64,000 bases of DNA from Rhizoclosmatium globosum (taxonomy: Eukaryota; Chytridiomycota; Chytridiomycetes; Chytridiales; Chytriomycetaceae). Below the pieces are notes generated by a model. That model did not search any database, was not told the origin of the DNA, and worked only from the letters and a program-made list of their open reading frames with translations. The position numbers and the translations under genes were made by a program. Shown here one piece after another: positions 3,001 to 46,839 of the stretch; position 1 is the first letter of the stretch, and each line of letters begins with the position of its first letter. The stretch is from the NCBI GenBank assembly GCA_002104985.1, contig MCGO01000097.1, forward strand, positions 1-64,000. Direction: 5' to 3'.

Positions 3001-6000
3001 ATTAGCAGGACAATCAGTGACATCAAATCATTTACGCATTGGAGTCTCGTTGAACGGATACTGCAGAAACATCCCTATCAATGCCGACGACCTGACAAAG
3101 AATCTGCTGCAAAGATGACTGCCCCGGCTGAATAATATCAAACAGAACTGGAGCATACAACGGAAAATCAGTTGTACACTGAACAGGTTTCAACGACCTT
3201 GGTAACGTAAAAATCAGAATTGCTATCAAATCCTCCTTCGTTCAAAAACTACACTTACAAATTCTTGTTAGGCCACAAGACTGGATTCTTATCAAACGTG
3301 TATCCAGTAGGCGCCGGTTTCTCCCACTCCACATCCTCTTCATAATCTTTATATATTGCTGATGCAACTGGTGCGGAACTGTCAACTGCATCTGGGTCAA
3401 ACCCAGCAAACGGCGAAACATTCAAGAACCCAGGTGGAATCTTTTTCGCCACAAGAGCACGACTCTGGTCTGTGGATTTACTCTCCCGCACCATCTGATC
3501 CCCTCGCTGCATCCCTTCAAACCGAACCCCTGCTTCTTGTGGCATCTGCCGCGTAGTTCCAGTTGGGATGGGGAGATCTGATGCGTCGTTTCCTCGTTCA
3601 ACGTCGACTCTTCGTAAGGTTCCGCGACGCTTTACGAACCCGAAGCCAGCACCTGGTGCCGTCATTTCTTCAGGTAATGTATCTTCTGCGACAGATTCTT
3701 GTGGCTTAGAAGCCTTTGACACACGGCCTGTAGCGCTAGGTCTTCCAAGAACACTGATACGTTTGGACGGCTGTTGCTGTTCTTGAATGGGCTTGATTTG
3801 GGCAGGGAGTTCCGGCTCTTTCTTGGCCTTCTCGATACCACGGATTGCATACACGTCAACGAGTTTTGTCGGTGCGTACGTGTATCCGACTGGAAGTCCT
3901 GGATCCCTCCGATACGTTCAGAAGCTTCATAGTAGCAGGAAGGGATGGGGATTTTTTCAAACCACGTTGGCTCCATAAAGACGGGAGGGATAGTTGTGAC
4001 GCCAGATGGAACGCCAGGAATGTTTGGAATTGGACGAGAGATTAAAACGTTCGACTTTGGATGGATAGGAAGGCCGACAGCGATAGCCTTCGTGTTGAAC
4101 ATAGAAGAGTTGTTATCAGCAAAGAAACCGGGGTGGTCAGAAACTGGGAGGAGTCTTGAGTACGTTCCAGGAGTAAGGAGGAGCTGTTTGAGAAGCTTCG
4201 CACGGAGAGCCATTCTAGATTCTTCAGCAATCATTTTCTGGTTAAATGATGTAAGTCGATGTTAGATCAGGTGATAAGCAGCTCACTTTCTTATACGCAG
4301 CCATTTCTCTGTCATAAGCGCTCTTGTCAAAACTCTCAACTTCCAAATCTTTCACCAGTTTAAGCCCAGTTTGTAAAGCGTCCAGGGCCAACAATCCGTT
4401 ATCTTCGTTTGTAACAGGGAGCCATGTACTGATAATGATATACCGCTGTCAATTTAATCTAATTTAAGTAGAATGAATGAACATACCTGACAAACTGAAC
4501 CGCAACCATTTGCACGCCTTCGGTAGCAACTTTCAGCAATGGACTGACAAACGACTTAAAGATTGCACCAACGTATTTTTCATTTTGCTCCGTATGTTTA
4601 ATCTGAACTAAGGATTAGTCGGATCTGAGATACCTGAAACACTTACATCATGAACCAAAGTACTCATGACAGACTTGACAACATGAAGTGGGCCCTTTGG
4701 AAAACCTTTCTTCAGAGTTCCGTCTGATTTCATCTAATTTTTGTTGGGTAACTTGCCAATAACCCTCCAAACTGGATTTAGTCACCTGCAGTCGTGTATC
4801 TCCGTGTTCAAACTCGTTCGAGAGAGCATAAATCGTCAAATCTTCCATGTATCGTGAATGTTGACTCAAATTGGTGGTAAACTTTCCAAGTGCATAAATC
4901 AGATAGATTTTCATGGATCGGTTGTCTGCCTGGTATTTCAACAAGGCGTCCTTTGAATAGTCATCTATCTTTAGCTTTGATGTGGAAGAAATAGAATCAA
5001 GTCTCACCCCGCTGAGCTTACGCTCTTTGAACTGGATATCAATAAGTTTCTTGATAAGCTCTTTGAACACCTGTCAGTCAAGTTAGATATGGTTCTTTCG
5101 TGGACTTCAGAGTCATTACCCGCAAAAGCATATTGTCATGTTCGCGAATGAAACCGAGCTGATGAGCTAGAATTCCGAGTAAATAAACAGCTTTCAAACG
5201 GTTTTCGAGTCTGCAGTCTGAAATCATGAGATTGACGAGGGAATTCAGGATATTCTGTGTGGGGAATGTAGGTGAATGACACTCAGTTAAGAACTAAGCG
5301 CGTACCTGTCGTGTGCTTGAGTCCAAGAGAGTGTCGTTAATAACCGGGACGGCAATTTTGAGCGCGCACATTGCCATATAACGGCCAATACATTCTGCTT
5401 GTGTGAGTCCAATGAGGAGAAGCTTCCAACCCCGATTAAAGTTGACTTGGACAGTGAAATAATCTGCTTCGACTGGAAGGACCGTGTCAAAAGACAAAAA
5501 TCAATCAAAAACTCACTGATTGGCTGAGAAAACAAGCCTTCCGCAATAATCCTCAATTCTGACGTTACATTCACGTTTGGAACAGTATCAAAGGATAGAC
5601 CCTCAATACCAAATCCTGATCTCTGACTCGCCTGGTTTTCTATTGGAGCTTCCTTTGATGCAGTTTTCCTTCCCCGACCAGTAGCAACCTTTGACTTTCT
5701 CCCCACAGGAATGTCTTCGCCCAGGTTCTCGTCATCCAGGTCTTCGTCCATACTCTGTTTGTTTTGCGCTTCGTTATCAGCATCAGCATCGGCATCAGCG
5801 GAGTGAGGCCGGGAATCAGAGTCCACGTTCCCGTTCGCGTTGACGTTGACGTTGACGTTGTCGTCCGAGTCGGTTTTGTTTGCGCGGGTCTTTCGTTCTG
5901 CGGCAAACTTTGCTTCCTTCAGTTTTGCGGCGCCGGCGGCAACAAACTGGGTCGTTGAGTCGACGAGGCCGCCGCCGCCGATGCTGCGGCGGACCGAGGC

Positions 6001-7953: not shown

Positions 7954-8401
7954 GTGATTAACTTCAAAGGCTTTACCTTGTGGCTTAACAAGAGGATGCA
8001 CTCCCGAAAGAAACTGACAAGAGTATTTCGCCGAGAATACCGATACTTCAACATTAATGATACTGTTATGGAGGAAGGGGATTCCCGTCTTCTTCAAAGG
8101 AGCATTCAAGGTGGAGAGGGAGAGAAAGAAGTGAAGTTGGTGAACTTGGGGGTGCGCTGGACTCTTAAACGAAACATGTGCTTTATGCTCGTTGTGCGAT
8201 GTCATTGTGTCTATGGAGGACAAGCGGACTTGCAGTGAATAATAAAAGCGCATTGGATTTCCCAGCAAAGCATCACGTTATAAAAGCAATAAAATAATGA
8301 TTCAAAGCCTATTTCGGTAATTCACATCGAAGAAGGTAGAACCAAATGCATCATAACACTTTTCATCAACCCAGCCATGACGAACATACCAGACGAACCT
8401 C
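7954..8401 (+). pseudogene. Left half of a partial PNUTS-like gene duplicate, interrupted by the copia element
   Basis: From about 7995 to 8100 the plus strand encodes a degraded version of the PP1-docking region of the PNUTS-like gene at 20585-24046. The copy reads HSRKKLTRVF followed by YRYFNINDTVMEEGD; the intact gene reads HPRKKRKAVTF followed by TRYFNIDDDVMAAGD. Similarity fades after about 8120 and the frame stops at 8236-8238. The matching right half resumes at about 15480, beyond the retrotransposon, in the same orientation. Only the central and C-terminal parts of the parent are represented, so this is a partial duplication. The order parent-like block, copia, parent-like block indicates that the element inserted into the duplicate. 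Confidence 0.6.
8397..8401. repeat. Target-site duplication, left copy (ACCTC)
   Basis: Five bases abutting the LTR end, repeated exactly at 15383-15387. Five bp is the usual duplication size for Ty1/copia integrases. Confidence 0.9.
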
Positions 8402-8700
8402 TGTTAGGACGGGCGACTTGTGTGGCAGGCACTGGAAGTGTTTGTTGTGAAAAAGCGAAGAACCGGGATCACGTGTGCAATCCACGGACGGACGGGAGTG
8501 GTCGGAAGCGGAGTTCCGTTCAGTCCCGGTCCGGAATCTCCACGCAACCCCGTCACGCTCACCTTGACGTCGCTTATCACACTTCCAACTACGTACCTCC
8601 TGCTTGGGTAAGTTAGTCGGTTCTGTAGTGGAATGGTGAGGGAGTGGGTGCGGACTAACCTGTCGACAGATCACTCGGAGAAGACTTCTCCGTCGTAACA
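8402..8700 (-). repeat. 3' LTR of the copia element
   Basis: 299-bp direct repeat with 15084-15382, bounded by TG and CA dinucleotides. No differences from the other LTR were found on reading both through. Confidence 0.95.
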
Positions 8701-8716
8701 CCCCCCTGTGACGACA
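8701..8716 (-). promoter_or_regulatory. Polypurine tract of the copia element
   Basis: On the minus strand TCGTCACAGGGGGG ends exactly at the LTR border, the expected place for the plus-strand DNA primer. The same 14-mer recurs at about 8813-8826, roughly 100 nt further inside the element, so a second priming site is possible. Confidence 0.7.
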
Positions 8717-8929
8717 GGGTAGGTTGCAGTCACGTGTGAAGTGATAAGAGTGTCGGACTAGATTGAGTGCGTATAATAAGCCCAGAGGTGCCGGCACGCG
8801 CGTGACACGCGTCCCCCCTGTGACGAGACTATACTGGAGACACAGAAGCTTTTTACAAGCATAAGGCTAAACATTTAATTCACCAGAATAGAGTGCGAGC
8901 TTGAAGAATTGAACTTCATAAATGTTTAT

Positions 8930-11900
8930 TTAATCACTAAACCTTGTGTATCTGACTCTAAGTGCTTTAAACTTATAATCAGGGTCAACATCAGATAACT
9001 TACACATTCCCATCATACCACATAACCTGTAGTGTTGGGGAGCAGGCAGAGCCTTAGTAAGTACATCAGCAACCATCAACTCAGTGGGGCAGTAAACCAG
9101 AGAAACATTGCTGTTTTCAATATGTTCACGTACAAAATGAGCCTTGACCTCCATGTGTTTAACACGGGCATGGTTGATGGGGTTGGATGCAATAGCAATT
9201 GTAGACTGATTGTCTTGATCAATTACTGTGGAACCAGGCAACTTGAAACCAAGTTCTTGCAAGAATAGACGCATCCAAAGAGCTTCTTTAACTGCTTCAA
9301 CGAGGGCATAGAGCTCGGATTCAGTAGAAGACAAAGCAGTAGTTGACTGCTTCTTGGAGTACCAGGCAACTGGACCTCCAAAAGCCATCATCACATACGC
9401 AGAGCGAGACTTACGATCAGTCTCTTGTGCAAAACTTGAATCAGCAGCAGCATGTGGAGCCAATCCTTCTGGCAGTTCCATATCAAGTGGTCGGTCAGTC
9501 CTTACTCGAGACTCTTCAGAAGAGTAGACAGTGAGGTCACCAGAAGCACTTGCCTTGAAAAGAATTCCCCAATCATAAGTTCTACGAAGATAGCGTAAAA
9601 CTCGAATCAGCGCATCATAATCATGCTGAGTGGTGGAGGAACGTTGAAACTGAGCCAGAGTGTTCACAGCGCATATGAGGTCTGGTCTGGTCATACAACT
9701 CAAATAAATCAACTTGGCAATAATTGAACAGTATTTGCGTTGTCCTTCTGCAGAAACGGGAGGGCTACTTGGGTCATGATTCCAAGTGGTGGCCATTGGA
9801 GTATCGGCCCAATTGTTGGAGTCCAGATCCCAAATATCGTATTCTTTCAGCAGAGCATGAGCATATTGAGGTTGTCCTATCCATATTCCCGCTTTGGTGC
9901 GTTCAACTTGGATCTTGAGAATCCATTTGGCTTGGCCAAGGTCAGAAATCTCAAACTCAGACTTAATAAGCTCCTTGATTTGGTCAATCACAGCTTGGTC
10001 CTTACAAGCAATGAGGATATCATCAACATAGAATAGAATGATGACAAGTTGACCAGTAGTTGGATCAATCTTCATGAAGACACAGGAATCAGTTTTCAAC
10101 TGTTGGAAACCAATTTTCACAAAGAAATCGCGTAGTCTCTTATACCATTGGCGTCCAGCTTGGCGAAGACCATAGAGTGCTTTCTTGAGCTCGGCAAAGA
10201 GAGGTCTACCTTCAGAGTCTTTTTCAGTGAACCCTGGGGGAAGATGCATGTAGTTTGGATGGTCCAAGTCACCATACAAAAATGCAGTCTTGATATCAAG
10301 TTGCGAAATGTTGAGGTTAAATGCGGCGCTTAACGCGATGAGAACACGGATTGCCTTGATCTTGACTGTTGGCGAATGAGTTTCGTCAAAGTCATCATAA
10401 GGGGTTTGACCACAGCCGACTGCAACAAGACGAGCTTTGAAGCGAGTGATGAATCCTTCAGGATCAGTCTTGTATGCGTAAACCCACTTTGATTTGATGG
10501 GTTTGCGACCTTCAGGCAAAAGAGAAGTGGTGTAAACTTCGCGGTTCATTAGACTCTCAATTTCACAAAGCATTGCACGTTGAAAGTAGGCAGCAAAGCG
10601 TCCTTCCATAGCTTCACGAACTGACTTAGGAACAGGTGGAGCATTGGAAACATGAATACGTTCAGTTGGTATATCAGAGGGAGCAGCCTTGGACCAATCA
10701 AAGTGAAGTTCTGGTCGGCGGGCAGCGTTGATGCGAGATCTTTCTTTCTCCAACTCTTCCATCTGGGAACTCATAAAGCTATCCATTTCGACACGAGCAT
10801 GTTCGGCGCGGCGGCGGAGTTTACTGAATTTCTTGCCAGTTGATTTGGCAGCACGTTCAACTCGGTGTTGAAGCCTAATGTATGTAGTACTTGCACGAAC
10901 CACAGTAGTTATAGCTTCAAGTGCGCGGCGGCTCAATGCAGCTTCAAAGTCTGGATCAGATAGGGTTGCTGGCTCTGCTTCATCGTTGGACTTAGCAGGT
11001 TTGGTGCCAGGGCTTGAGGCTTCAGAGTCAGATTCTGAATCTGAGTCTGACATAAGGACTTGACCTTCCTTGAAAAGGTGTTGCATATAAGATATGAATT
11101 CATCTAAATCACTGGTACCAAGGGAAATAGACGACTTGGAAACCTTTGCTCGGAGACGACGTGGCTTTTGTGGAGGTTCACTCGAAGACTCGCGGCTACG
11201 TGGTCGCTTTCGCAGGCTTCGACCAGGCTCTTGGAGGAGACGAGAAATATCCTCACGTTCTCTGGCAAGGCGAGGGCCATCGATTAAAGGTCCCGAAAAT
11301 AATGGGCTGGAACTGTCAGCAGAATCTATAGGAAAACATAAAGAATGTTACATTTTGCTTGGCGTATTGAGGAATACTAACCATGGGCCATAGATTCACC
11401 AACAGGCTGGACTTTAGAGAATAGCTTCTCAAGACTTGCCTCATCGTCAGTCATGATAGTATCATCTAAAGATTTGTATGATTGTTACATAAGAATTTGA
11501 AGGAATTATGATAGTGTACGGCTATTCACCTTCATCTTCCAAAGAAACTGCCTCAACGTCCCCTTTATACGTCATCTCAGACTTGGAAAGTGTAGTAGCA
11601 TCGGTGTCCCAACCAGACTCTGGAGTGTCAGATTCGGAGTCAACAAGTGCTTCAGGTACCTTGAAACCATCATCTGGTATGTCAATGAAGTAGTCGAAAA
11701 CTTCATCTTCAACCGGAGTCACTGGCATTGATGTCTTCATGGCATCAGCATGGGCCTTGACAAACGGGTTTACCACTGTTGGATCAAAGGTCTTTCCAAG
11801 AAAGATGGTGGGGCACCAGCGAACGTGAAATACTTCAACTGGCTTTTGAAGGCGATAGTTCCAAACAATCATGATAGTACGCGACTTGTATGCAAGAAAG

Positions 11901-14900
11901 GCGACGGGCTCTGCTTTGATCATTCTACCAACGCGTTTGGTCCGTAGTTTCTTTTCAACTGGCGTATATCCCAACGTACCCATGGAAATGAAGTAACTGT
12001 AAATCGTTGTTACTCTCCAGAATTGAGTATAAAGAATGTTTGAAAGACTCACTTGTAGTATGGTTGTACCTTGGTGATACGTTCATACGGTGACTTCGCG
12101 CGTACTCCATTTTTGGGAGCGGCGGTTACGAGTGAATTAATGACAAATACTGCAAGTTGAATTGCAAAGCAGTAGAAATCCTTTGGGAACAAGGATGTCA
12201 GCAATTCCAATTCAGCTCTGTCGCGGTAGATTCCAAGAGGGCGTTCGACCAAACTAAATTCTTGAGTGTAAGCTGGTGCAAGTCGGAGCTCCACTTCAAC
12301 ATCAGAATGGGAGAGGCACCAAGTTTCCATCCACTTGGTATCAAGTTCACCTCTGTCGCCTCCAATTACAAGAATCTGATACCCATACTTGAGCTCTAAA
12401 GTGTTCAGAAAACGAGTGAATCGGATGGTAAACTCTGCTTTTGACTTGAGCGGTAGAATCCACATATATTTGGTGTATCGGCATTGGATGAATGCTATAT
12501 ACCTGTAACCACGAATAGTGCGAAAACCAATAGGATAAAGGTCTTCGTATATGTGGCTTAACATGTGAATTGGCCTGTCTGATGGGCCATCAAGCTTACG
12601 GGTGGTTCGTTTCCTGTGTGCTACGGCAGGACAAGCAGGACAGATTTTCTTGTCTCGCTCAAAGTTGTAGGTGATACCTGCAGAGTCCAACGTTTGACGC
12701 ATAGTACGGTCGTTGCAGTGGGCAAGGACTTGGTGCCATTCTAACCAAGTTTTGCGATCTAGAGCAGGAATAGACTTTGCAGGTGCAGCAAATTTGGATT
12801 CGTCATAACCAAGGTCAATGTAGTAAAGATCGCCGACTCGTGCTCCAATTTCCAAGACTTGACGCGTTTGATTTAGCTTCAAGCGGACCTTGTTCTGAGT
12901 GAACTCAATGGTATCTTTTGAGTCACGTAACAAGTGGGAAATTGACACAAGCATGTCTGTAAGCTGAGGGACATGAAGAGCGCCTTCAATCAGTCTCTCA
13001 GGGTTACTGAACATTCGGATGGTACCAGTACCGACTATTGGGATCTTGTTTTCGTTGGCCATATATACGAATTCATCTTCAACTGGCTGGTAGGTCCCAG
13101 GAACAAAGTGCTCTAAACAGGGAGTCATAATCAAGGAAGCACCAGAATCAATCAAAGAACGGATACGTTTATTGAAAACATTCAATCCACGTGTAACAAA
13201 AATCCGCTTTGACAACTCATTAAAATCGTGCCACTTGTCAACTTCATCGACTTGAAGAAGCGTTGAGCCTCTCTGGATTCTACTTGCCCGCGAGCTTACG
13301 GACTTGCTTCTCAACGTCCTTGTTAGATTTTGAAGTCTGGGCAATGAAGTGTAAGAACCATCGTCGGAATCATATTCGTCCATGGACTCAGAGTCACTGG
13401 ATGATTCAGCAAGAGCAGGCATATCAAAATCAGAATCGGAGGGGGAGGAATCGACCAAATCGGCATTTTCACTCACCTTCAGAATCGATCTGAGAGCCTT
13501 CTTGTCAATCTTGACGTCTTTCTCGTCATCACTGGCACTGTCGGAGTAGTAGTCTGTTTCATACTCAGTGTCAGCAGCATTTGCACGCTTCTTGCGACGG
13601 TTGTTTCGGTCAGAGTCAGAAGCGTCGCGAGCAGAACGGTGGCGCTTGTCAGTTTTTCTTCTGTCACGGTCTTGGGAACTTGAAGAAGGACCAGAGTTTG
13701 AGGTAGGGGAAGACTGGGTGGTCTTAGATTTCTCTAAGCGTTGGGTCAGATCAACAGCCTCTCCTTTCTCAATCAGACTGGCAGCAAAACGACAATGGCG
13801 AAGGAGATGTGTTGGACCTCTGGTTGATTGATGGAGGCGACACGTATTGTTGAGATTGGCTTTGTATCCGTTGTTAGAAAGCCAAGTCTCAAGCTCCTTG
13901 AACTTTGACACCGTTGGTGAAGATTCAGTTCTCCCCTATGGCTTGATGTTAGTTATTTATCAAAACCAATAGTTGGAGATAATGATGATGACTTACAGCA
14001 TTTGCTCTGATATTCTTGTCAGATTTGTCAGATGGGTCAGAAAGGTTGCGAGCATTGGTCAAAGTGCTTGTCAACTTGGTGATAAGAGCTTCCATATTTG
14101 GAAACAACTTGTAACCGTCTTTCTCGATATCAAGTCGGATTCCAATGAAGCGGCTTCCAAGGACCGAACTTGGATCTGGCATGTTCTTGTGGACAAGGGC
14201 CAGAGTGAGGACAAGAGAGAAGATATCGGCAGCCTTTTCCGCATCAGTGTCATTGAACTGGAAATGCTGGAAAACAGCCTTGATTTGCTGCAGACCTTGG
14301 GAAGACTTCTTGAGCTTTTCGACGAAAGCTTCCCACTTCTCCAAACTGTTCCGATGCTCTTTCGACAGTCCAGACTGCATGAGGTTGTTCAAGAACGTGG
14401 TGAAGTTCATCTGTGTGATGAAAAGTCGATTAGTCATCATTACAAAGTCGAATTTGAAATGGATAAGGCAAAAGGGGAAGACGTAAAATAGTCACTCACC
14501 CCAACCCGGTCGTCTTGTTGGAAAACAGATCGCGCAGCAGCGAATGCATTCAAAAGAGTTGGGTTGGCCTTGAACGTTGGGTCCTCCTGAATCTCTTTCC
14601 ACTTGATGGAAGAGAACTGCTGGGAGTAGTCACGGAGGGCAGCGGCTTGACCATCAATAAACTTGCGATGTTGTTCCTTTCGCTTGTTGTTGATGTCATC
14701 GACTTCCTTTTGGTGTTTCAGAGCGGCATCAACTAATGCGTTGTGATTGAGTTGATTCGTCTGGAAAACAGCCAGATCCGACGGCTTGTCGCTCTCCATG
14801 GTTACTTCGTAAGGCTGCCCACCATTCTCGGAGTTGACCGTCTTTTTCACCATAATAGGTTTGGGAGCGGTTGTGGGAGCGAAGATCTCGTAGGAGGCGA

Positions 14901-15069
14901 GCACAAGCGTGGATTGGAGGTCGGGATTGACGAGAGACGGGTAGAGTTGCCTGATGTAGGCCTCGTTCTCGTCAAGCGACGTGGACACCATGTGTGGAGC
15001 GAAGGCATCCACAGGCTTGGGGCGGTGGACGTCGGTAGTGTTTACAGTAGACTTGCTTGACCCAGTCAT
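8930..15069 (-). CDS. Copia Gag-Pol polyprotein, encoded in six exons
   Basis: The exons are 15069-14500, 14410-13997, 13935-12053, 11996-11530, 11465-11382 and 11325-8930, totalling 5814 nt (1937 residues plus stop). The start ATG (MTGSSKST) is 14 nt inside the 5' LTR. Gag fills about residues 1-400. The usual CCHC knuckle is replaced by a C/H cluster, CRLH...HLLRHC, near residue 360. The protease active site DSGAS is near 591. Integrase follows with an HHCC zinc region (WHQVLAH...CPAC) and acidic residues in YEDLYP, GGDRGE and SLVERPLG. RT has YVDDILIAC near 1565. RNase H has STESELYALVEA. All core motifs are present, so the element may be active. Odd points are the five introns, each bringing an in-frame stop if retained, and the Ser/Asp/Glu-rich linkers. 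Confidence 0.92.
11326..11381 (-). other. Putative spliceosomal intron 5, before RT (56 nt)
   Basis: GTTAGTATTC donor and TTCCTATAG acceptor, phase 1. Retention produces a TAG at once. Splicing continues into the frame that carries RT and RNase H. Confidence 0.78.
11466..11529 (-). other. Putative spliceosomal intron 4 (64 nt)
   Basis: GTGAATAGCC donor and AAATCTTTAG acceptor, phase 1. Retention brings a TAG two codons in. The following exon is only 84 nt. Confidence 0.78.
11997..12052 (-). other. Putative spliceosomal intron 3, after integrase (56 nt)
   Basis: GTGAGTCTTT donor and GATTTACAG acceptor, phase 2. Retention produces a TGA across the donor site, ending the protein after integrase and before RT. 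Confidence 0.82.
13936..13996 (-). other. Putative spliceosomal intron 2 of the copia gag (61 nt)
   Basis: GTAAGTCATC at the 5' end, a CTAAC branch-like box about 15 nt from the CCATAG acceptor, phase 0. Read-through gives 15 codons and then a stop. Confidence 0.85.
14411..14499 (-). other. Putative spliceosomal intron 1 of the copia gag (89 nt)
   Basis: GTGAGTGACT at the 5' end and TCATCACACAG at the 3' end, phase 0. Read through, it adds 19 codons and then a stop. Its removal joins two Gag-like frames. Confidence 0.8.
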
Positions 15070-15083
15070 TAACGGCGTAGTTG

Positions 15084-15382
15084 TGTTAGGACGGGCGACT
15101 TGTGTGGCAGGCACTGGAAGTGTTTGTTGTGAAAAAGCGAAGAACCGGGATCACGTGTGCAATCCACGGACGGACGGGAGTGGTCGGAAGCGGAGTTCCG
15201 TTCAGTCCCGGTCCGGAATCTCCACGCAACCCCGTCACGCTCACCTTGACGTCGCTTATCACACTTCCAACTACGTACCTCCTGCTTGGGTAAGTTAGTC
15301 GGTTCTGTAGTGGAATGGTGAGGGAGTGGGTGCGGACTAACCTGTCGACAGATCACTCGGAGAAGACTTCTCCGTCGTAACA
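15084..15382 (-). repeat. 5' LTR of the copia element
   Basis: 299-bp direct repeat with 8402-8700. As the upstream LTR for the minus-strand element it should contain the promoter. The gag ATG at 15069 lies only 14 nt inside it. Confidence 0.95.
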
Positions 15383-15387
15383 ACCTC
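15383..15387. repeat. Target-site duplication, right copy (ACCTC)
   Basis: Matches 8397-8401 exactly and directly abuts the end of the 5' LTR. Confidence 0.9.
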
Positions 15388-15469
15388 TCCTATCAAGCTA
15401 AATTATTGCACATGACAAACATGCTTCAAAAGTCGTGCATATTTGGGTGAGAAATAAAACTGACGGTTT

Positions 15470-15810: not shown

Positions 15811-17085
15811 GTTTTGACCACAGTTTATTGGAAAATGAAATAAGAAAATATCGAGACTTCATTGAAAGAAAGTAAGAACGTGACAGCCAGAATGGTGAGC
15901 TTAATTATACAACGTAAGCAGGTTTAAGTGTGCCATTCACTTCCCCAGCAACTAGCCATAAGAAACCAGTTCTGACGAACAACAGAAGTTATAGAAGAAC
16001 CTCACTCTATCATGTTAAATGATTGCACATGACAAAGATGTTTCACAGTTGTGTGTAGGTGGTTGGATATTATGGGACGGAACGAGATGGCGGAGTTACA
16101 CAACTGAGAAGTGAGGTCTACCATCGTATGAGAAAGCTCAAGTAAGCTGTCAACAAATGGCGAAACAAGACAAAGAAGGTCCACTCCACTCTTTCGAGAT
16201 GAAGAAGCCAAAGACGTCGAAACATCATTGGTAGGACTCGCGCCAATGTAGTCACAGTTCAAATGAACCATTGCAAATAGCGGAACAGGTTAAGTCAGAA
16301 AGAAAAGAAAGTGACCCGTAAAGTAATGGGTGACAGAGTACAAGAGAGAAGAAGAATCCCAACAAGGCCAAGGAAAATCCCAGAGACAGAAGTGGGAAAA
16401 AGGAGGATGCCAAGTTTTCAGGCCAAGGGACCATCGATAAAAGCAAAACAGGGAGGAAGAGAAGGAATATGGAGAGAACAGAACCAAAACAGAATATTGA
16501 GAACGTCAAAGATTCAACGAGCTGACTAGAACTTGCGAAGACATATTAGGCATTTGAAAGACCGGATATTATATCTATTCTGTATTGTAAGGTTTCGATG
16601 ATAGAACGTGGAACAGCATACCAAGATTGTGGAAGAGACTGGTGAATAGGTCGACTGAGCTCACAATTTTGAATTGTCAGACCTGTGAAGAGAAGGATAC
16701 GTCAGCTCCGCTTCGTCAGTCTACCCGCTAATAAGAACTTAAACAACCAAAAACGGATTGCCGCTAAACTGGTGCGGGAGTTTGATTGTACGACCTGATG
16801 GTGGAATCTGGGCAATTCAACTGTGTGTCAGTAGACGTTGGACGCGTCAAAACACTAGTGACCTCACCTCTTGAGTACTTAAATTCTCGCATAGGTTGAG
16901 TCAGCGGAGAGATGGCGCGTTTGGTTGGTTTGTGGCATCATTTCTTTTGCGTTCCTCAATTCGTCTTTTATTAAAGAGGAGAAATTCTGAAAGGAGGGGA
17001 AACGAGACCTTATTTTGAGAGATGGAATAGAGACGTTTTTATATATAATTGGATGCAAGTTAAGGCAGAGAAAAAGAAAGAGGAA
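15811..17085. other. Intergenic, no convincing gene
   Basis: The stretch at about 16004-16064 is an imperfect direct repeat (about 55 nt, including ATTGCACATGACAAA-like sequence) of 15388-15450, next to the copia insertion. Frames near 16311-16529 are purine-rich and low in complexity, so I do not call a gene. A TATA-like run (TTTATATATAAT, about 17039-17050) lies 35-47 nt upstream of the chosen mcm6 start. Confidence 0.5.
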
Positions 17086-25379: not shown

Positions 25380-26192
25380 CTAATGCGTCCAAGCCTCAAC
25401 ACGCAAACGCCAATAATCCAGAGTCCAAACACCTTGTGAATCACACAAAACAGGTCTCAACTGCTCCACAATCTCATTCTTCAACTCCTCTCGTTCTTCG
25501 TCACTTCCTAACACGTCCATAAACGCCATTCCAAACGTATCCAACCATCCCTTCAATCCAGCTTCCAACAAAACAGTCGGTCTACCCACAAGCGTCGCGG
25601 TCACATCAGTAAACCCATTCTTCTCCAATAAAAGCTTGTATTCTGCCGGACTGGGGAAATACCAAGGCGACACAGCCCATCCATCAAACCCACGCTTATT
25701 GAGTCCATTAATCAACGCTGCATGAACACTCGCAATGTTTAAGAACCCTCCAAATTCAGCAACAAAACGACCTTGATGGTTTGACTTCAAGACGGCTCGG
25801 ATTCCTCGGACGACTTGAGCGGGAGACTTCTTCATCCAGTGGAGAGCGGCGTTTGAAAAGACGGCATCAAACTTGTCGGTTGCAGTTCCCCATTCCGAAG
25901 TGTGTAGATCGTGGCTGTCCAAAACACTGTAAGTATCCGCAGAATTGGGGAAGTTCTCCTTCGCTTGACGAATCATATCGGGACTGGCGTCGTTTGCAAC
26001 CACAATGGCACCAGATAGCCGGATGCGTTCAGTCAAGATTCCATCACCACACCCAATGTCCATGATTCTTTCGCCAGGTTTTGGAGCGAGGACTTCAAGG
26101 ATTGGAGTTCCGAGTTGTGGCACAAACGAGGCATGTTGCGAGTAGGCCTTGGGAGACCAAGTGTAAGTTGTTGAAGTTGTGGTTGTAGTCAT
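25380..26192 (-). CDS. Class I SAM-dependent methyltransferase (trans-aconitate methyltransferase-like)
   Basis: A single-exon frame of 270 residues from ATG 26192, beginning with a Thr-rich stretch. The SAM-binding motif I is IMDIGCGDG (about residues 42-50), followed by an acidic end of beta-2 (VVANDASPDM) and motif IV-like FDAVFSNAALHWM, where the HWM ending resembles the Tam/Methyltransf_11 group. The length fits small-molecule methyltransferases of that group. The substrate cannot be read from sequence, and trans-aconitate is only the nearest family label. It lacks a signal peptide and membrane segments, so it is probably cytosolic. It converges with the SAP gene, with stop codons 144 bp apart. 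The absence of introns sets it apart from its neighbours. Confidence 0.85.
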   Translation of the reverse strand: MTTTTTSTTYTWSPKAYSQHASFVPQLGTPILEVLAPKPGERIMDIGCGDGILTERIRLSGAIVVANDASPDMIRQAKENFPNSADTYSVLDSHDLHTSEWGTATDKFDAVFSNAALHWMKKSPAQVVRGIRAVLKSNHQGRFVAEFGGFLNIASVHAALINGLNKRGFDGWAVSPWYFPSPAEYKLLLEKNGFTDVTATLVGRPTVLLEAGLKGWLDTFGMAFMDVLGSDEEREELKNEIVEQLRPVLCDSQGVWTLDYWRLRVEAWTH

Positions 26193-38423: not shown

Positions 38424-38496
38424 GGGGATCTAGCTCAAATGGTAGAGCGCTCGCTTAGCATGCGAGAGGCACTGGGATCAATGCCCAGGTTCTCCA
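38424..38496 (+). tRNA. tRNA-Ala(AGC), unit 1
   Basis: 73 nt. The anticodon stem-loop CTCGC-TTAGCAT-GCGAG gives AGC. The T-loop is ATCAATG (A at position 54), and the acceptor has one T-T mismatch (position 6 with 67). Leu follows after 3 nt (ATT) with no T-run. Confidence 0.93.
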
Positions 38497-38499
38497 ATT

Positions 38500-38581
38500 G
38501 GACAGATGGCCGAGCGGTCTAAGGCGCTGCACTCAAGTTGCAGTCAAGCAATTGGCGTGGGTTCGAATCCCACTCTGTTCA
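38500..38581 (+). tRNA. tRNA-Leu(CAA), unit 1
   Basis: 82 nt, no intron. Acceptor GGACAGA/TCTGTTC, D arm GCCGAGCGGTCTAAGGC, anticodon loop CTCAAGT, long variable arm, T arm GTGGGTTCGAATCCCAC. Followed by TTTT. Confidence 0.96.
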
Positions 38582-38774
38582 TTTTATTGGTGCATAATCT
38601 CAGTTATGCACTCTTAAGGGAGGCAAGAAAGGCAGAGAGAAGGTTTTGTTGAGTTTTCTCTGTAGTAAGAAAGTAAGAGTAATCAGAAGCCATCTATGAT
38701 GACAACAGATTCCGCCTTAGAAATGCAAATGTAGAACAATATTCCTGGAGACTTATCTGAGAGCATTGTCACCT

Positions 38775-38847
38775 GCCTAGCTAGCTCAATCGGTAGAGCG
38801 TGAGACTCTTAATCTCAAGGTTGTGGGTTCGACCCCCACGTTGGGCT
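38775..38847 (+). tRNA. tRNA-Lys(CTT), unit 1
   Basis: 73 nt. Acceptor GCCTAGC/GTTGGGC (two G-T pairs), anticodon stem-loop TGAGA-CTCTTAA-TCTCA, T arm GTGGGTTCGACCCCCAC. Val starts 4 nt later without a T-run between. Confidence 0.95.
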
Positions 38848-38851
38848 TGCC

Positions 38852-38925
38852 GTTCTCGTGGTGTAGTAGGTTATCACACCAGTCTAACACACTGGTGGTC
38901 CCCAGTTCGAACCTGGGCGAGAACA
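38852..38925 (+). tRNA. tRNA-Val(AAC), unit 1
   Basis: 74 nt. Acceptor GTTCTCG/CGAGAAC, anticodon stem-loop CCAGT-CTAACAC-ACTGG, T arm CCCAGTTCGAACCTGGG. TTTT follows. Confidence 0.96.
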
Positions 38926-39004
38926 TTTTCTTATTCCTTCCATATTGTTTTACTCACTCAACCTACACAATAAAGGAGAAGAGAAAAGCAGATATTCAAA
39001 AGGC

Positions 39005-39075
39005 TGCAATGACCGGGAATCGAACCCGGGACTACCGCGTGGCAGGCGATAATTATACCACTAAACCATCATTGC
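39005..39075 (-). tRNA. tRNA-Gly(GCC), unit 1
   Basis: 71 nt on minus. Acceptor GCAATGA/TCATTGC, anticodon loop with GCC (CTGCCAC), T arm CCGGGTTCGATTCCCGG. A TTTT terminator lies just downstream on minus. Confidence 0.96.
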
Positions 39076-40022
39076 AGATGCAGGCTGGAATGAATAAGGT
39101 ATCCTCGTTGTCAACATTGCCCTCAAGAAACATTATTTCATAGACAACTCCTTTAGAAAGTTGTAATGGGCACTAATGTTTCTCACACTGATTTCAATGT
39201 ACCAATAAAACAAATCCAATTTCTTTTCTTTTAATGAATAACAACTGTTATTGCTACACATCTATGCCAAACCATGTTACTGTCAAATGAGCCCTGTTGC
39301 AATTGCCTTACAATAATTTCATTCCACGTCAAATGCATCCACCCATTTAATGCAAGAAATATAATTGCAATAACAACACAGAGTACACAATCTTCTTGAG
39401 AAATAAAGTAAATAACATTTGTGCAGGTTTGGTTCTCTTTGCACAGCTTGACATTGGGTTTACAAACTTATATCTGTCAACAGTGGCAGTAACCTTGAGT
39501 TATATTGTCATTCCAAAAAGAAGCATAATGCACTCATATATGCAGTACAGCATCAAGAAATTGACAATTTCAAAAACTAAGGAAAGGATGTAATAATTTT
39601 GATTAACAAATAACTTCCTTTACCAGAGTTTTGCACAAGCAACAAACATACGCAATAAGCGTGATTGTACAAGTACAATATAGCAAAATTCTGCAGGAAT
39701 GCCATAATTCTAGAAACATTAGTACAACTACGGCAAATCATAATACATTCCTGCGTTCATGCATTGGAAACACAAACAAACAAAACTCTTCTTTCTTTCT
39801 CCTTTTTTCTCCGTCTTTCTCTTCTCTTTCTCTCTCTCGCTTTCTCCTCTTCCTTTCTACCCTCTCGTCTTATTCACACATTACAAGTCATTTGCAATTT
39901 CTTACATTTGCTTTTACTCGTTGAATTTAAATACTAACCTTGTCCATTGGCAGAATAAGCAGCTTTCACAAAGCAGGTAAAGAAAAAGGTTCGGAAATGG
40001 TATATCGGAGGGCGACCAATCA

Positions 40023-40095
40023 GGGGATCTAGCTCAAATGGTAGAGCGCTCGCTTAGCATGCGAGAGGCACTGGGATCAATGCCCAGGTTCTCCA
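40023..40095 (+). tRNA. tRNA-Ala(AGC), unit 2
   Basis: Same sequence as the unit 1 gene by eye. Confidence 0.93.
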
Positions 40096-40098
40096 ATT

Positions 40099-40180
40099 GG
40101 ACAGATGGCCGAGCGGTCTAAGGCGCTGCACTCAAGTTGCAGTCAAGCAATTGGCGTGGGTTCGAATCCCACTCTGTTCA
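40099..40180 (+). tRNA. tRNA-Leu(CAA), unit 2
   Basis: Same sequence as unit 1; 3 nt after Ala. Confidence 0.96.
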
Positions 40181-40373
40181 TTTTATTGGTGCATAATCTC
40201 AGTTATGCACTCTTAAGGGAGGCAAGAAAGGCAGAGAGAAGGTTTTGTTGAGTTTTCTCTGTAGTAAGAAAGTAAGAGTAATCAGAAGCCATCTATGATG
40301 ACAACAGATTCCGCCTTAGAAATGCAAATGTAGAACAATATTCCTGGAGACTTATCTGAGAGCATTGTCACCT

Positions 40374-40446
40374 GCCTAGCTAGCTCAATCGGTAGAGCGT
40401 GAGACTCTTAATCTCAAGGTTGTGGGTTCGACCCCCACGTTGGGCT
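40374..40446 (+). tRNA. tRNA-Lys(CTT), unit 2
   Basis: Same sequence as unit 1. Confidence 0.95.
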
Positions 40447-40450
40447 TGCC

Positions 40451-40524
40451 GTTCTCGTGGTGTAGTAGGTTATCACACCAGTCTAACACACTGGTGGTCC
40501 CCAGTTCGAACCTGGGCGAGAACA
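40451..40524 (+). tRNA. tRNA-Val(AAC), unit 2
   Basis: Same sequence as unit 1; 4 nt after Lys. Confidence 0.96.
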
Positions 40525-40603
40525 TTTTCTTATTCCTTCCATATTGTTTTACTCACTCAACCTACACAATAAAGGAGAAGAGAAAAGCAGATATTCAAAA
40601 GGC

Positions 40604-40674
40604 TGCAATGACCGGGAATCGAACCCGGGACTACCGCGTGGCAGGCGATAATTATACCACTAAACCATCATTGC
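40604..40674 (-). tRNA. tRNA-Gly(GCC), unit 2
   Basis: Same sequence as unit 1. Confidence 0.96.
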
Positions 40675-41622
40675 AGATGCAGGCTGGAATGAATAAGGTA
40701 TCCTCGTTGTCAACATTGCCCTCAAGAAACATTATTTCATAGACAACTCCTTTAGAAAGTTGTAATGGGCACTAATGTTTCTCACACTGATTTCAATGTA
40801 CCAATAAAACAAATCCAATTTCTTTTCTTTTAATGAATAACAACTGTTATTGCTACACATCTATGCCAAACCATGTTACTGTCAAATGAGCCCTGTTGCA
40901 ATTGCCTTACAATAATTTCATTCCACGTCAAATGCATCCACCCATTTAATGCAAGAAATATAATTGCAATAACAACACAGAGTACACAATCTTCTTGAGA
41001 AATAAAGTAAATAACATTTGTGCAGGTTTGGTTCTCTTTGCACAGCTTGACATTGGGTTTACAAACTTATATCTGTCAACAGTGGCAGTAACCTTGAGTT
41101 ATATTGTCATTCCAAAAAGAAGCATAATGCACTCATATATGCAGTACAGCATCAAGAAATTGACAATTTCAAAAACTAAGGAAAGGATGTAATAATTTTG
41201 ATTAACAAATAACTTCCTTTACCAGAGTTTTGCACAAGCAACAAACATACGCAATAAGCGTGATTGTACAAGTACAATATAGCAAAATTCTGCAGGAATG
41301 CCATAATTCTAGAAACATTAGTACAACTACGGCAAATCATAATACATTCCTGCGTTCATGCATTGGAAACACAAACAAACAAAACTCTTCTTTCTTTCTC
41401 CTTTTTTCTCCGTCTTTCTCTTTCTCTTTCTCTCTCTCGCTTTCTCCTCTTCCTTTCTACCCTCTCGTCTTATTCACACATTACAAGTCATTTGCAATTT
41501 CTTACATTTGCTTTTACTCGTTGAATTTAAATACTAACCTTGTCCATTGGCAGAATAAGCAGCTTTCACAAAGCAGGTAAAGAAAAAGGTTCGGAAATGG
41601 TATATCGGAGGGCGACCAATCA

Positions 41623-41695
41623 GGGGATCTAGCTCAAATGGTAGAGCGCTCGCTTAGCATGCGAGAGGCACTGGGATCAATGCCCAGGTTCTCCA
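41623..41695 (+). tRNA. tRNA-Ala(AGC), unit 3
   Basis: Same sequence as unit 1. Confidence 0.93.
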
Positions 41696-41698
41696 ATT

Positions 41699-41780
41699 GG
41701 ACAGATGGCCGAGCGGTCTAAGGCGCTGCACTCAAGTTGCAGTCAAGCAATTGGCGTGGGTTCGAATCCCACTCTGTTCA
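41699..41780 (+). tRNA. tRNA-Leu(CAA), unit 3
   Basis: Same sequence as unit 1; 3 nt after Ala. Confidence 0.96.
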
Positions 41781-41973
41781 TTTTATTGGTGCATAATCTC
41801 AGTTATGCACTCTTAAGGGAGGCAAGAAAGGCAGAGAGAAGGTTTTGTTGAGTTTTCTCTGTAGTAAGAAAGTAAGAGTAATCAGAAGCCATCTATGATG
41901 ACAACAGATTCCGCCTTAGAAATGCAAATGTAGAACAATATTCCTGGAGACTTATCTGAGAGCATTGTCACCT

Positions 41974-42046
41974 GCCTAGCTAGCTCAATCGGTAGAGCGT
42001 GAGACTCTTAATCTCAAGGTTGTGGGTTCGACCCCCACGTTGGGCT
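41974..42046 (+). tRNA. tRNA-Lys(CTT), unit 3
   Basis: Same sequence as unit 1. Confidence 0.95.
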
Positions 42047-42050
42047 TGCC

Positions 42051-42124
42051 GTTCTCGTGGTGTAGTAGGTTATCACACCAGTCTAACACACTGGTGGTCC
42101 CCAGTTCGAACCTGGGCGAGAACA
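42051..42124 (+). tRNA. tRNA-Val(AAC), unit 3
   Basis: Same sequence as unit 1; 4 nt after Lys. Confidence 0.96.
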
Positions 42125-42203
42125 TTTTCTTATTCCTTCCATATTGTTTTACTCACTCAACCTACACAATAAAGGAGAAGAGAAAAGCAGATATTCAAAA
42201 GGC

Positions 42204-42274
42204 TGCAATGACCGGGAATCGAACCCGGGACTACCGCGTGGCAGGCGATAATTATACCACTAAACCATCATTGC
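42204..42274 (-). tRNA. tRNA-Gly(GCC), unit 3
   Basis: Same sequence as unit 1. Confidence 0.96.
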
Positions 42275-43222
42275 AGATGCAGGCTGGAATGAATAAGGTA
42301 TCCTCGTTGTCAACATTGCCCTCAAGAAACATTATTTCATAGACAACTCCTTTAGAAAGTTGTAATGGGCACTAATGTTTCTCACACTGATTTCAATGTA
42401 CCAATAAAACAAATCCAATTTCTTTTCTTTTAATGAATAACAACTGTTATTGCTACACATCTATGCCAAACCATGTTACTGTCAAATGAGCCCTGTTGCA
42501 ATTGCCTTACAATAATTTCATTCCACGTCAAATGCATCCACCCATTTAATGCAAGAAATATAATTGCAATAACAACACAGAGTACACAATCTTCTTGAGA
42601 AATAAAGTAAATAACATTTGTGCAGGTTTGGTTCTCTTTGCACAGCTTGACATTGGGTTTACAAACTTATATCTGTCAACAGTGGCAGTAACCTTGAGTT
42701 ATATTGTCATTCCAAAAAGAAGCATAATGCACTCATATATGCAGTACAGCATCAAGAAATTGACAATTTCAAAAACTAAGGAAAGGATGTAATAATTTTG
42801 ATTAACAAATAACTTCCTTTACCAGAGTTTTGCACAAGCAACAAACATACGCAATAAGCGTGATTGTACAAGTACAATATAGCAAAATTCTGCAGGAATG
42901 CCATAATTCTAGAAACATTAGTACAACTACGGCAAATCATAATACATTCCTGCGTTCATGCATTGGAAACACAAACAAACAAAACTCTTCTTTCTTTCTC
43001 CTTTTTTCTCCGTCTTTCTCTTTCTCTTTCTCTCTCTCGCTTTCTCCTCTTCCTTTCTACCCTCTCGTCTTATTCACACATTACAAGTCATTTGCAATTT
43101 CTTACATTTGCTTTTACTCGTTGAATTTAAATACTAACCTTGTCCATTGGCAGAATAAGCAGCTTTCACAAAGCAGGTAAAGAAAAAGGTTCGGAAATGG
43201 TATATCGGAGGGCGACCAATCA

Positions 43223-43295
43223 GGGGATCTAGCTCAAATGGTAGAGCGCTCGCTTAGCATGCGAGAGGCACTGGGATCAATGCCCAGGTTCTCCA
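43223..43295 (+). tRNA. tRNA-Ala(AGC), unit 4
   Basis: Same sequence as unit 1. Confidence 0.93.
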
Positions 43296-43298
43296 ATT

Positions 43299-43380
43299 GG
43301 ACAGATGGCCGAGCGGTCTAAGGCGCTGCACTCAAGTTGCAGTCAAGCAATTGGCGTGGGTTCGAATCCCACTCTGTTCA
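43299..43380 (+). tRNA. tRNA-Leu(CAA), unit 4
   Basis: Same sequence as unit 1; 3 nt after Ala. Confidence 0.96.
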
Positions 43381-43573
43381 TTTTATTGGTGCATAATCTC
43401 AGTTATGCACTCTTAAGGGAGGCAAGAAAGGCAGAGAGAAGGTTTTGTTGAGTTTTCTCTGTAGTAAGAAAGTAAGAGTAATCAGAAGCCATCTATGATG
43501 ACAACAGATTCCGCCTTAGAAATGCAAATGTAGAACAATATTCCTGGAGACTTATCTGAGAGCATTGTCACCT

Positions 43574-43646
43574 GCCTAGCTAGCTCAATCGGTAGAGCGT
43601 GAGACTCTTAATCTCAAGGTTGTGGGTTCGACCCCCACGTTGGGCT
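43574..43646 (+). tRNA. tRNA-Lys(CTT), unit 4
   Basis: Same sequence as unit 1. Confidence 0.95.
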
Positions 43647-43650
43647 TGCC

Positions 43651-43724
43651 GTTCTCGTGGTGTAGTAGGTTATCACACCAGTCTAACACACTGGTGGTCC
43701 CCAGTTCGAACCTGGGCGAGAACA
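43651..43724 (+). tRNA. tRNA-Val(AAC), unit 4
   Basis: Same sequence as unit 1; 4 nt after Lys. Confidence 0.96.
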
Positions 43725-43803
43725 TTTTCTTATTCCTTCCATATTGTTTTACTCACTCAACCTACACAATAAAGGAGAAGAGAAAAGCAGATATTCAAAA
43801 GGC

Positions 43804-43874
43804 TGCAATGACCGGGAATCGAACCCGGGACTACCGCGTGGCAGGCGATAATTATACCACTAAACCATCATTGC
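43804..43874 (-). tRNA. tRNA-Gly(GCC), unit 4
   Basis: Same sequence as unit 1. Confidence 0.96.
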
Positions 43875-44822
43875 AGATGCAGGCTGGAATGAATAAGGTA
43901 TCCTCGTTGTCAACATTGCCCTCAAGAAACATTATTTCATAGACAACTCCTTTAGAAAGTTGTAATGGGCACTAATGTTTCTCACACTGATTTCAATGTA
44001 CCAATAAAACAAATCCAATTTCTTTTCTTTTAATGAATAACAACTGTTATTGCTACACATCTATGCCAAACCATGTTACTGTCAAATGAGCCCTGTTGCA
44101 ATTGCCTTACAATAATTTCATTCCACGTCAAATGCATCCACCCATTTAATGCAAGAAATATAATTGCAATAACAACACAGAGTACACAATCTTCTTGAGA
44201 AATAAAGTAAATAACATTTGTGCAGGTTTGGTTCTCTTTGCACAGCTTGACATTGGGTTTACAAACTTATATCTGTCAACAGTGGCAGTAACCTTGAGTT
44301 ATATTGTCATTCCAAAAAGAAGCATAATGCACTCATATATGCAGTACAGCATCAAGAAATTGACAATTTCAAAAACTAAGGAAAGGATGTAATAATTTTG
44401 ATTAACAAATAACTTCCTTTACCAGAGTTTTGCACAAGCAACAAACATACGCAATAAGCGTGATTGTACAAGTACAATATAGCAAAATTCTGCAGGAATG
44501 CCATAATTCTAGAAACATTAGTACAACTACGGCAAATCATAATACATTCCTGCGTTCATGCATTGGAAACACAAACAAACAAAACTCTTCTTTCTTTCTC
44601 CTTTTTTCTCCGTCTTTCTCTTTCTCTTTCTCTCTCTCGCTTTCTCCTCTTCCTTTCTACCCTCTCGTCTTATTCACACATTACAAGTCATTTGCAATTT
44701 CTTACATTTGCTTTTACTCGTTGAATTTAAATACTAACCTTGTCCATTGGCAGAATAAGCAGCTTTCACAAAGCAGGTAAAGAAAAAGGTTCGGAAATGG
44801 TATATCGGAGGGCGACCAATCA

Positions 44823-44895
44823 GGGGATCTAGCTCAAATGGTAGAGCGCTCGCTTAGCATGCGAGAGGCACTGGGATCAATGCCCAGGTTCTCCA
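44823..44895 (+). tRNA. tRNA-Ala(AGC), unit 5
   Basis: Same sequence as unit 1. Confidence 0.93.
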
Positions 44896-44898
44896 ATT

Positions 44899-44980
44899 GG
44901 ACAGATGGCCGAGCGGTCTAAGGCGCTGCACTCAAGTTGCAGTCAAGCAATTGGCGTGGGTTCGAATCCCACTCTGTTCA
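44899..44980 (+). tRNA. tRNA-Leu(CAA), unit 5
   Basis: Same sequence as unit 1; 3 nt after Ala. Confidence 0.96.
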
Positions 44981-45173
44981 TTTTATTGGTGCATAATCTC
45001 AGTTATGCACTCTTAAGGGAGGCAAGAAAGGCAGAGAGAAGGTTTTGTTGAGTTTTCTCTGTAGTAAGAAAGTAAGAGTAATCAGAAGCCATCTATGATG
45101 ACAACAGATTCCGCCTTAGAAATGCAAATGTAGAACAATATTCCTGGAGACTTATCTGAGAGCATTGTCACCT

Positions 45174-45246
45174 GCCTAGCTAGCTCAATCGGTAGAGCGT
45201 GAGACTCTTAATCTCAAGGTTGTGGGTTCGACCCCCACGTTGGGCT
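45174..45246 (+). tRNA. tRNA-Lys(CTT), unit 5
   Basis: Same sequence as unit 1. Confidence 0.95.
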
Positions 45247-45250
45247 TGCC

Positions 45251-45324
45251 GTTCTCGTGGTGTAGTAGGTTATCACACCAGTCTAACACACTGGTGGTCC
45301 CCAGTTCGAACCTGGGCGAGAACA
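45251..45324 (+). tRNA. tRNA-Val(AAC), unit 5
   Basis: Same sequence as unit 1; 4 nt after Lys. Confidence 0.96.
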
Positions 45325-45403
45325 TTTTCTTATTCCTTCCATATTGTTTTACTCACTCAACCTACACAATAAAGGAGAAGAGAAAAGCAGATATTCAAAA
45401 GGC

Positions 45404-45474
45404 TGCAATGACCGGGAATCGAACCCGGGACTACCGCGTGGCAGGCGATAATTATACCACTAAACCATCATTGC
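45404..45474 (-). tRNA. tRNA-Gly(GCC), unit 5
   Basis: Same sequence as unit 1. Confidence 0.96.
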
Positions 45475-46418: not shown

Positions 46419-46491
46419 GGGGATCTAGCTCAAATGGTAGAGCGCTCGCTTAGCATGCGAGAGGCACTGGGATCAATGCCCAGGTTCTCCA
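46419..46491 (+). tRNA. tRNA-Ala(AGC), unit 6
   Basis: Same sequence as unit 1. Confidence 0.93.
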
Positions 46492-46494
46492 ATT

Positions 46495-46576
46495 GGACAG
46501 ATGGCCGAGCGGTCTAAGGCGCTGCACTCAAGTTGCAGTCAAGCAATTGGCGTGGGTTCGAATCCCACTCTGTTCA
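46495..46576 (+). tRNA. tRNA-Leu(CAA), unit 6
   Basis: Same sequence as unit 1. The spacer after it is about 7 bp shorter than in units 1-5. Confidence 0.96.
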
Positions 46577-46835: not shown

Positions 46836-46839
46836 TGCC

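Follow-up and report, generated by a model that had tools for sequence, protein, structure and literature searches.

A recently active Ty1/copia retrotransposon family of the chytrid Rhizoclosmatium globosum with five apparent spliceosomal introns in gag-pol

Contig MCGO01000097.1 of Rhizoclosmatium globosum (GenBank assembly GCA_002104985.1) was analysed from position 1 to 64,000, and this 64,000-nt stretch is called the window. A 6,981-bp Ty1/copia retrotransposon lies on its minus strand, running from 15382 to 8402, and its gag-pol gene is interrupted by five short segments (Table 1). The element belongs to a multi-copy, recently active family. From comparison of the copies, the five segments are very probably true spliceosomal introns, and the family would usually be replicated from unspliced RNA. 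All five segments have GT and AG ends, with phases 0, 0, 2, 1 and 1, and the summed exons come to 5,814 nt (3 × 1,938, i.e. 1,937 codons plus a stop). A sequence-only reading of the window had already given the element's coordinates and five GT-AG segments of 89, 61, 56, 64 and 56 nt in three phases, removal of which leaves a frame of 1937 residues; all of this stands on recount. The element has identical 299-bp long terminal repeats (LTRs) and a target-site duplication (TSD) of GAGGT. The window copy is not a lone oddity that picked up introns, and belongs to a group in which some of the introns are old.

The genome that was searched comprises 56.9 Mb in 420 contigs. An intact host protein of the window, a methyltransferase at 25383-26189, shares 97% identity with a protein of Rhizoclosmatium sp. 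JEL0117 and 68% with one of Obelidium mucronatum, which puts the host in or close to the genus Rhizoclosmatium. The DNA query was 1.5 kb long and consisted mostly of exon 3 plus intron 3, so that copies without that stretch would escape. At least 17 matches were found: the window copy, seven more full copies, a damaged copy on contig C377, matches on C34 and C394, and matches on C109 and C372 in three pieces apiece. The eight full copies and their TSDs are the window copy (GAGGT) and those on C1 (AGAAT), C124 (ACGCA), C238 (ACCTT), C363 (GAAAG), C376 (two copies, CTCCC and GTGCA) and C380 (GTGAA). The TSDs are all different, and the copies are therefore eight separate integrations. The two LTRs of each full copy differ by no substitution in 299 bp; those of C124 and of one of the C376 copies (C376a) have short insertions or deletions (indels). 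Sibling copies had been proposed in the sequence-only reading as one check on the introns. All five introns, with their GT and AG ends, are present in every one of the eight full copies (40 of 40), and a further insertion, represented by C34 and C394, is exactly without intron 3. Counting C109/C372 as one locus and C34/C394 as another, the 11 loci retain 53 of the 54 introns examined, a figure that includes the damaged intron 1 of C109/C372. The copy on C377 has introns 1, 3, 4 and 5, intron 4 with a 7-nt deletion, and its intron 2 falls inside a larger deletion. C109/C372 is rearranged, with introns 2–5 whole and with a 37-nt deletion in intron 1 that removes the donor. Further indels occur in C377, C109 and C372. 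In exon columns the window copy is 0.62–0.83% different from its seven full siblings, and the copies fall into several sub-lineages. At C124:182300-185520 (L010) the 3′ part lies in tandem partial repeats with part of an LTR.

Because the introns are present in each of eight young independent insertions, we infer that new copies would usually be reverse-transcribed from full-length unspliced RNA and would inherit the introns in this way. The spliceosome would remove the five introns to give the gag-pol messenger. On reading into introns 1–5 a stop is met after 19, 15, 1, 2 and 1 codons, respectively. Unspliced RNA could therefore yield only a truncated Gag, so that spliced RNA must supply the proteins, and, to judge by where these stops lie, every product seems to require splicing. 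The proteins translated from spliced RNA would then have to act on the unspliced RNA of the same element or of its siblings, which implies separate RNA pools for translation and for replication. Exact intron loss would result from the occasional copying of an RNA that is spliced in part, or from switching between spliced and unspliced templates.

Counterparts of some of the introns are found in three other families of the genome, in which the intron boundaries were set by eye and single donors or acceptors may be off. Family L020 (C4), 50% identical in exon 6, has introns between gag and protease (78 nt) and at the positions of introns 4 (56 nt) and 5 (64 nt), plus an extra intron 6 (57 nt); apart from these introns its gag frame and its protease-integrase frame are uninterrupted, so that it is without introns 1–3. 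Family L055 (C26; 51% identical) has two introns in gag (58 and 99 nt), one between gag and protease (66 nt), and introns 4, 5 and 6 of 66, 64 and 54 nt. Family L056 (C129), of which 1.65 kb excluding the reverse transcriptase (RT) was read, matches the protease-integrase part at 34–35% and has introns 4 (54 nt) and 5 (58 nt). In all four families intron 4 is in phase 1 and follows the glycine of a [YF]xGx[VIL] motif by 10–11 residues; the exon that introns 4 and 5 enclose measures 84, 99, 87 and 87 nt. Introns 4 and 5 are thus, by their shared place in these sequences, old within the group. Among the four families read, intron 3 is found in the window family alone; the site is without an intron in L020, L055 and L056, and for this reason intron 3 was probably gained in the window family.

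A fifth family, C52/C301 (L057, L058), has an open frame of 1,958 amino acids, and over the 251 nt read it passes the intron-4 site uninterrupted. In the RT tree it lies inside a supported group (98/98) and adjoins the metagenome protein P0004 (97/93). When it is left out, the window element, L020, L021/L055 and P0001–P0004 group at 100/99; these four metagenome members are known as proteins only. C52/C301 may have lost its introns or may never have had them, and the branching order within the group does not decide between the two. Other copia families of the genome have long single frames (e.g. 1,749, 1,642 and 1,579 amino acids). A protein search with exon 3 gave three proteins at E ≤1e-3 among 7,999 scored candidates, and 114 pattern matches in viral contigs contained no relative of the element. 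In families L018, L022, L023 and L026 stops occur over about 230–305 nt between two pol frames. The first pol frame of L022, L023 and L026 ends at a common AAGGTCTGATCAAC (about 3720–3770 on the element strand), and the RT frame follows some 230–305 nt on.

Maintenance of the introns by selection (for packaging, export or dosage) is favoured by the age of introns 4 and 5, and mere tolerance by the turnover of the other introns. The strongest rival, to which we give slightly less than an even chance, takes the second course: the introns are true and are kept passively, with inefficient splicing, plentiful unspliced RNA and losses that are purged or too rare to be seen, and with no role in replication. 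It is compatible with true introns usually copied from unspliced RNA, and denies only that they have a function. Intron content does turn over, with L020 lacking introns 1–3, intron 6 extra in L020 and L055, and C52/C301 open at the intron-4 site. Against this, neutral and frequent losses would hardly be expected to leave introns 4 and 5 and the small exon in place in four families, and all five introns persist in eight young copies. A more elaborate scheme is a replication switch kept by selection, in which protein would come only from spliced RNA and only unspliced RNA would enter particles. The cassette of intron 4, small exon and intron 5 would then set the dose of RT relative to Gag plus integrase, replacing frameshifting or stop suppression. 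Retention of either cassette intron gives a stop within 24 codons, except for intron 4 of L055. We put this switch forward tentatively and think it rather unlikely.

The exact loss of intron 3 in C34/C394 bears directly on splicing. Here TACTACAA is followed directly by TTACTTC, so that exon 3 is joined to exon 4 with the 56-nt intron removed base for base. The 34-nt junction without intron 3 occurs at two places in the genome, C34 and C394, and nowhere in the reversed control. The two contigs are 99.989% identical over 9,371 nt and represent one insertion. On our reading, a deletion between the ACA repeats at both ends of the intron would give TACTACAGTTAC, whereas TACTACAATTAC is observed. 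The exact loss indicates that the element's RNA is open to splicing followed by reverse transcription; the simplest reading is that partly spliced RNA was reverse-transcribed, or that the template was switched between spliced and unspliced RNA. That C34/C394 shows instead the state before intron 3 was gained is very improbable, and this view is rejected. It would agree with the three families that have no intron at the site, and the grouping of C34/C394 with C124/C238 in the exon-column tree reaches only 82/90. However, the most distant copies, C109/C372 (3.1–3.5% from all others), have intron 3, as does C377, which makes its absence from C34/C394 a loss. Moreover, C34/C394 and all other copies lie opposite C109/C372 across a branch supported at 100/100.

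Joining of the frame was an argument of the sequence-only reading. Removal of the segments does join it, although the argument is weak by itself since GT-AG segments of 40–120 nt that would rejoin the frame number 3, 9, 9, 4 and 5 at the five breaks. When donor, acceptor and branch-site consensus sequences of our own choosing are imposed, the predicted segment is the sole candidate at breaks 1, 2 and 5 and one of two at break 3. Three observations raise the segments above chance: they recur in sibling copies, intron 3 has been exactly lost in one insertion, and other families have counterparts. The same reading had likened the segments to host introns of the window in length and signals. They have the GT-AG ends, and at 56–89 nt are similar to or somewhat longer than five introns of the window's MCM gene (MCM_OB), delimited by eye at 49, 57, 33, 46 and 49 nt, the 33-nt one being doubtful. 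The G+C content of the five segments is 0.30–0.37, so that they are richer in A+T than the exons (0.44–0.52).

Purifying selection on the predicted exons is strong. Compared with its seven full siblings the window copy shows 30–41 synonymous and 6–7 nonsynonymous changes, giving an uncorrected ratio of nonsynonymous to synonymous rates (dN/dS) of 0.04–0.06, for sites counted over the whole gene (1,310 synonymous and 4,504 nonsynonymous) and siblings lacking the first 130–195 coding bases. The 84-nt exon 5 has one or two synonymous changes and no nonsynonymous change per copy. The low ratio, exon 5 included, means that the predicted frame has been working while the family moved. The introns differ by 3–6 changes in 326 nt and by a 3-nt indel of intron 2 common to all seven siblings (58 nt, against 61 nt in the window copy). 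The only exon indel in the seven is a single base in exon 6 of C376a. It is scarcely credible that the segments are random insertions or indels of a degenerating element, or places of frameshifting or stop read-through, with fortuitous GT and AG ends, and this explanation is rejected. Although each break has three to nine GT-AG segments able to close the frame, all seven full siblings carry these very segments with almost no other internal indels, one of them is exactly lost elsewhere, and the selection on the exons and the counterparts in other families point the same way.

A gene model of Rhizoclosmatium hyalinum provides a further comparison. P0242 (526 amino acids, on a 3,743-nt contig) is 97% identical to the element over part of exon 1, and this likeness marks it as part of the same element or of one very close to it. 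It joins exons 1/2 and 2/3 exactly at predicted introns 1 and 2. It differs elsewhere, being without pieces of exons 2 and 3, running from a donor within exon 3 to exon 4, handling intron 4 differently and using the intron 5 donor with another acceptor. P0242 appears to be the product of automatic annotation of a broken copy, and its support is modest. The exon 3 donor used in the model is a strong AAG/GTGAGT at window 13476 (minus strand), within the open part of the exon and about where L020 and L055 carry their gag/protease intron (all in phase 0). No clear acceptor was found within 200 nt of it, and it may be the relic of an intron or a facultative one.

Spread of the copies as DNA by segmental duplication, which would need no unspliced template, is suggested by C34/C394 and C109/C372, as these resemble duplicated or allelic loci, but it is refuted for the eight full copies, whose different TSDs each match at both ends of the element and whose LTR pairs carry no substitution.

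Several points weigh against five true introns usually copied from unspliced RNA. Intron 4 fails the consensus test and has a weak donor (GTGAAT). The splicing of introns 1, 2, 4 and 5 is deduced from the frame, selection and shared position, and the use of unspliced RNA as the usual template is likewise a deduction. In the R. hyalinum model, exact agreement is limited to introns 1 and 2 and to the intron 5 donor. Loss is seen in one insertion only, and searches of the genome for the exact-loss junctions of introns 1, 2, 4 and 5, allowing up to three mismatches, gave no match to any of them. The C34/C394 match stops at element position 5664, its 3′ TSD is not seen, and the copy carries a stop among 25 nonsynonymous changes relative to the window copy. 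The forks within the ingroup are weak (52–82% bootstrap), close pairs and triplets excepted.

The textbook account of why retroelements and retrocopies are intronless is that mature RNA is what is reverse-transcribed, and the sequence-only reading had called multiple introns in a recent copy very unusual. This holds, yet introns of retroelements are known in Ogre, EVADE, BARE1, two sunflower elements and Penelope. Ogre has a single intron. Its splicing was reportedly described by Steinbauerova et al. (2008); introns in Penelope-like elements are said to have been described by Arkhipova et al. (2003). Splicing in copia gives a Gag-only RNA beside the full-length RNA.

Statements on the papers cited here by their PubMed Central (PMC) numbers hold for excerpts of them. 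Plant LTR elements are generally without introns, with Ogre and EVADE as notable exceptions (PMC12786077). Ogre, a Ty3/gypsy element of legumes, resembles the window element in being an LTR element with a spliced intron (PMC3735527, PMC12786077); it belongs to another superfamily and kingdom, and splices between open reading frames (PMC3735527). The window element shares the Copia superfamily, and on our reading splicing, with copia, BARE1 and EVADE. In BARE1 (PMC3735527) and EVADE (PMC8892269) splicing gives a Gag-only RNA beside the full-length RNA, and in 2013 BARE was described as the sole case demonstrated in Copia apart from copia itself (PMC3735527). The unspliced RNA of BARE1 and EVADE encodes Gag-Pol and splicing is facultative, whereas that of the window element would meet a stop within gag. 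The sunflower LTR retrotransposons Tyran and Varan have isoforms with two spliced introns beside the unspliced genomic RNA, but theirs is a short spliced isoform for a truncated Gag (PMC7730604). The mechanism of Penelope-like elements apparently permits intron retention, which the authors contrast with all other types of retrotransposon (PMC3846280); these elements have another RT lineage and endonuclease. Retroviruses and Cer1 of Caenorhabditis elegans need to export unspliced genomic RNA with working splice sites (PMC10309623), but their unspliced RNA doubles as the Gag and Pol messenger. Transposons with poorly spliced introns occur in Cryptococcus (PMC7175516, PMC6232588); the excerpt of PMC7175516 concerns intron-containing DNA transposons, and no copia case was found in the excerpts of either paper. 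In a search of PMC papers under Creative Commons licences, no multi-intron Ty1/copia family or clade was recognised among the papers listed, and earlier notes of such elements may exist, for example beyond those papers. Introns in retroelements and splicing in copia elements are known, and what appears new is that five introns, to all appearance obligate, have persisted through repeated retrotransposition. At least eight integrations with these introns, and one exact loss in the same genome, amount to a natural assay of intron loss. The family makes it testable how an LTR element separates messenger from genome, and its group shows intron turnover alongside long retention inside a retrotransposon.

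The element is placed in Ty1/copia because its integrase precedes the RT and because the RT is of the RVT_2 family (PF07727, E 1.7e-57). The integrase match (about 12.1–12.7 kb) lies upstream of the RT (9.8–10.5 kb) on the minus strand; it is to chain 7z0h_W ('Integrase', E 1.1e-5; the sole match at E ≤1), which we take to be the integrase of Ty1. All eight full copies have LTRs with TG..CA ends and a 5-bp TSD. The short motifs of exon 3 were picked out by eye, and the RNase H region was assigned from the position and similarity of matches, without a Pfam match. A Penelope-like element, which would have an RT lineage of its own and no integrase of the LTR type, was considered and is ruled out by the copia RT and the integrase. 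For a primer tRNA, the sequence past the 5′ LTR (window 15066-15083) was considered; the 20 nt compared agree with the seven tRNA types of the window over at most 6 nt.

Table 1. Features of the element, in window coordinates and in element order
Feature	Position	Strand	Description
Target-site duplication, 5′ side	15383..15387	-	GAGGT on element strand
5′ LTR	15084..15382	-	299 bp, TG...CA, identical to 3′ LTR
Exon 1 (gag, from ATG)	14500..15069	-	570 nt; no match in Pfam search
Intron 1	14411..14499	-	89 nt, GTGAGT..CAG, phase 0; same join in R. hyalinum gene model
Exon 2 (gag)	13997..14410	-	414 nt; no match in Pfam search
Intron 2	13936..13996	-	61 nt, GTAAGT..TAG, branch-like AACTAAC, phase 0; same join in R. 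hyalinum model
Exon 3	12053..13935	-	1883 nt; gag Cys/His motif, protease DSGA, Pol_BBD, integrase zinc-binding HHCC and core
Intron 3	11997..12052	-	56 nt, GTGAGT..CAG, phase 2; exactly missing in copy C34/C394
Exon 4 (integrase C-terminal part and linker)	11530..11996	-	467 nt
Intron 4	11466..11529	-	64 nt, GTGAAT..TAG, phase 1; matched in place and phase in three further families
Exon 5	11382..11465	-	84 nt, small, symmetric (phase 1-1); 99, 87 and 87 nt in other families
Intron 5	11326..11381	-	56 nt, GTTAGT..TAG, phase 1; equivalents in three further families
Exon 6	8930..11325	-	2396 nt; reverse transcriptase (RVT_2, YVDD) and RNase H region; stop 8930-8932
Polypurine tract AGGGGGG	8701..8707	-	adjoins 3′ LTR; read from sequence
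3′ LTR	8402..8700	-	299 bp
Target-site duplication, 3′ side	8397..8401	-	ACCTC on forward strand

Beside the 5′ LTR, outside the element, a 39-nt direct repeat (87% alike) occupies window 15390-15428 and 16007-16045. Elsewhere in the window, positions 38424-50215 hold eight head-to-tail repeats of about 1.6 kb, with starts 1,576–1,600 nt apart. Each repeat carries tRNA genes for Ala-AGC, Leu-CAA, Lys-CTT and Val-AAC, with Gly-GCC on the opposite strand, and together the repeats contain 40 of the 42 tRNA genes of the window.

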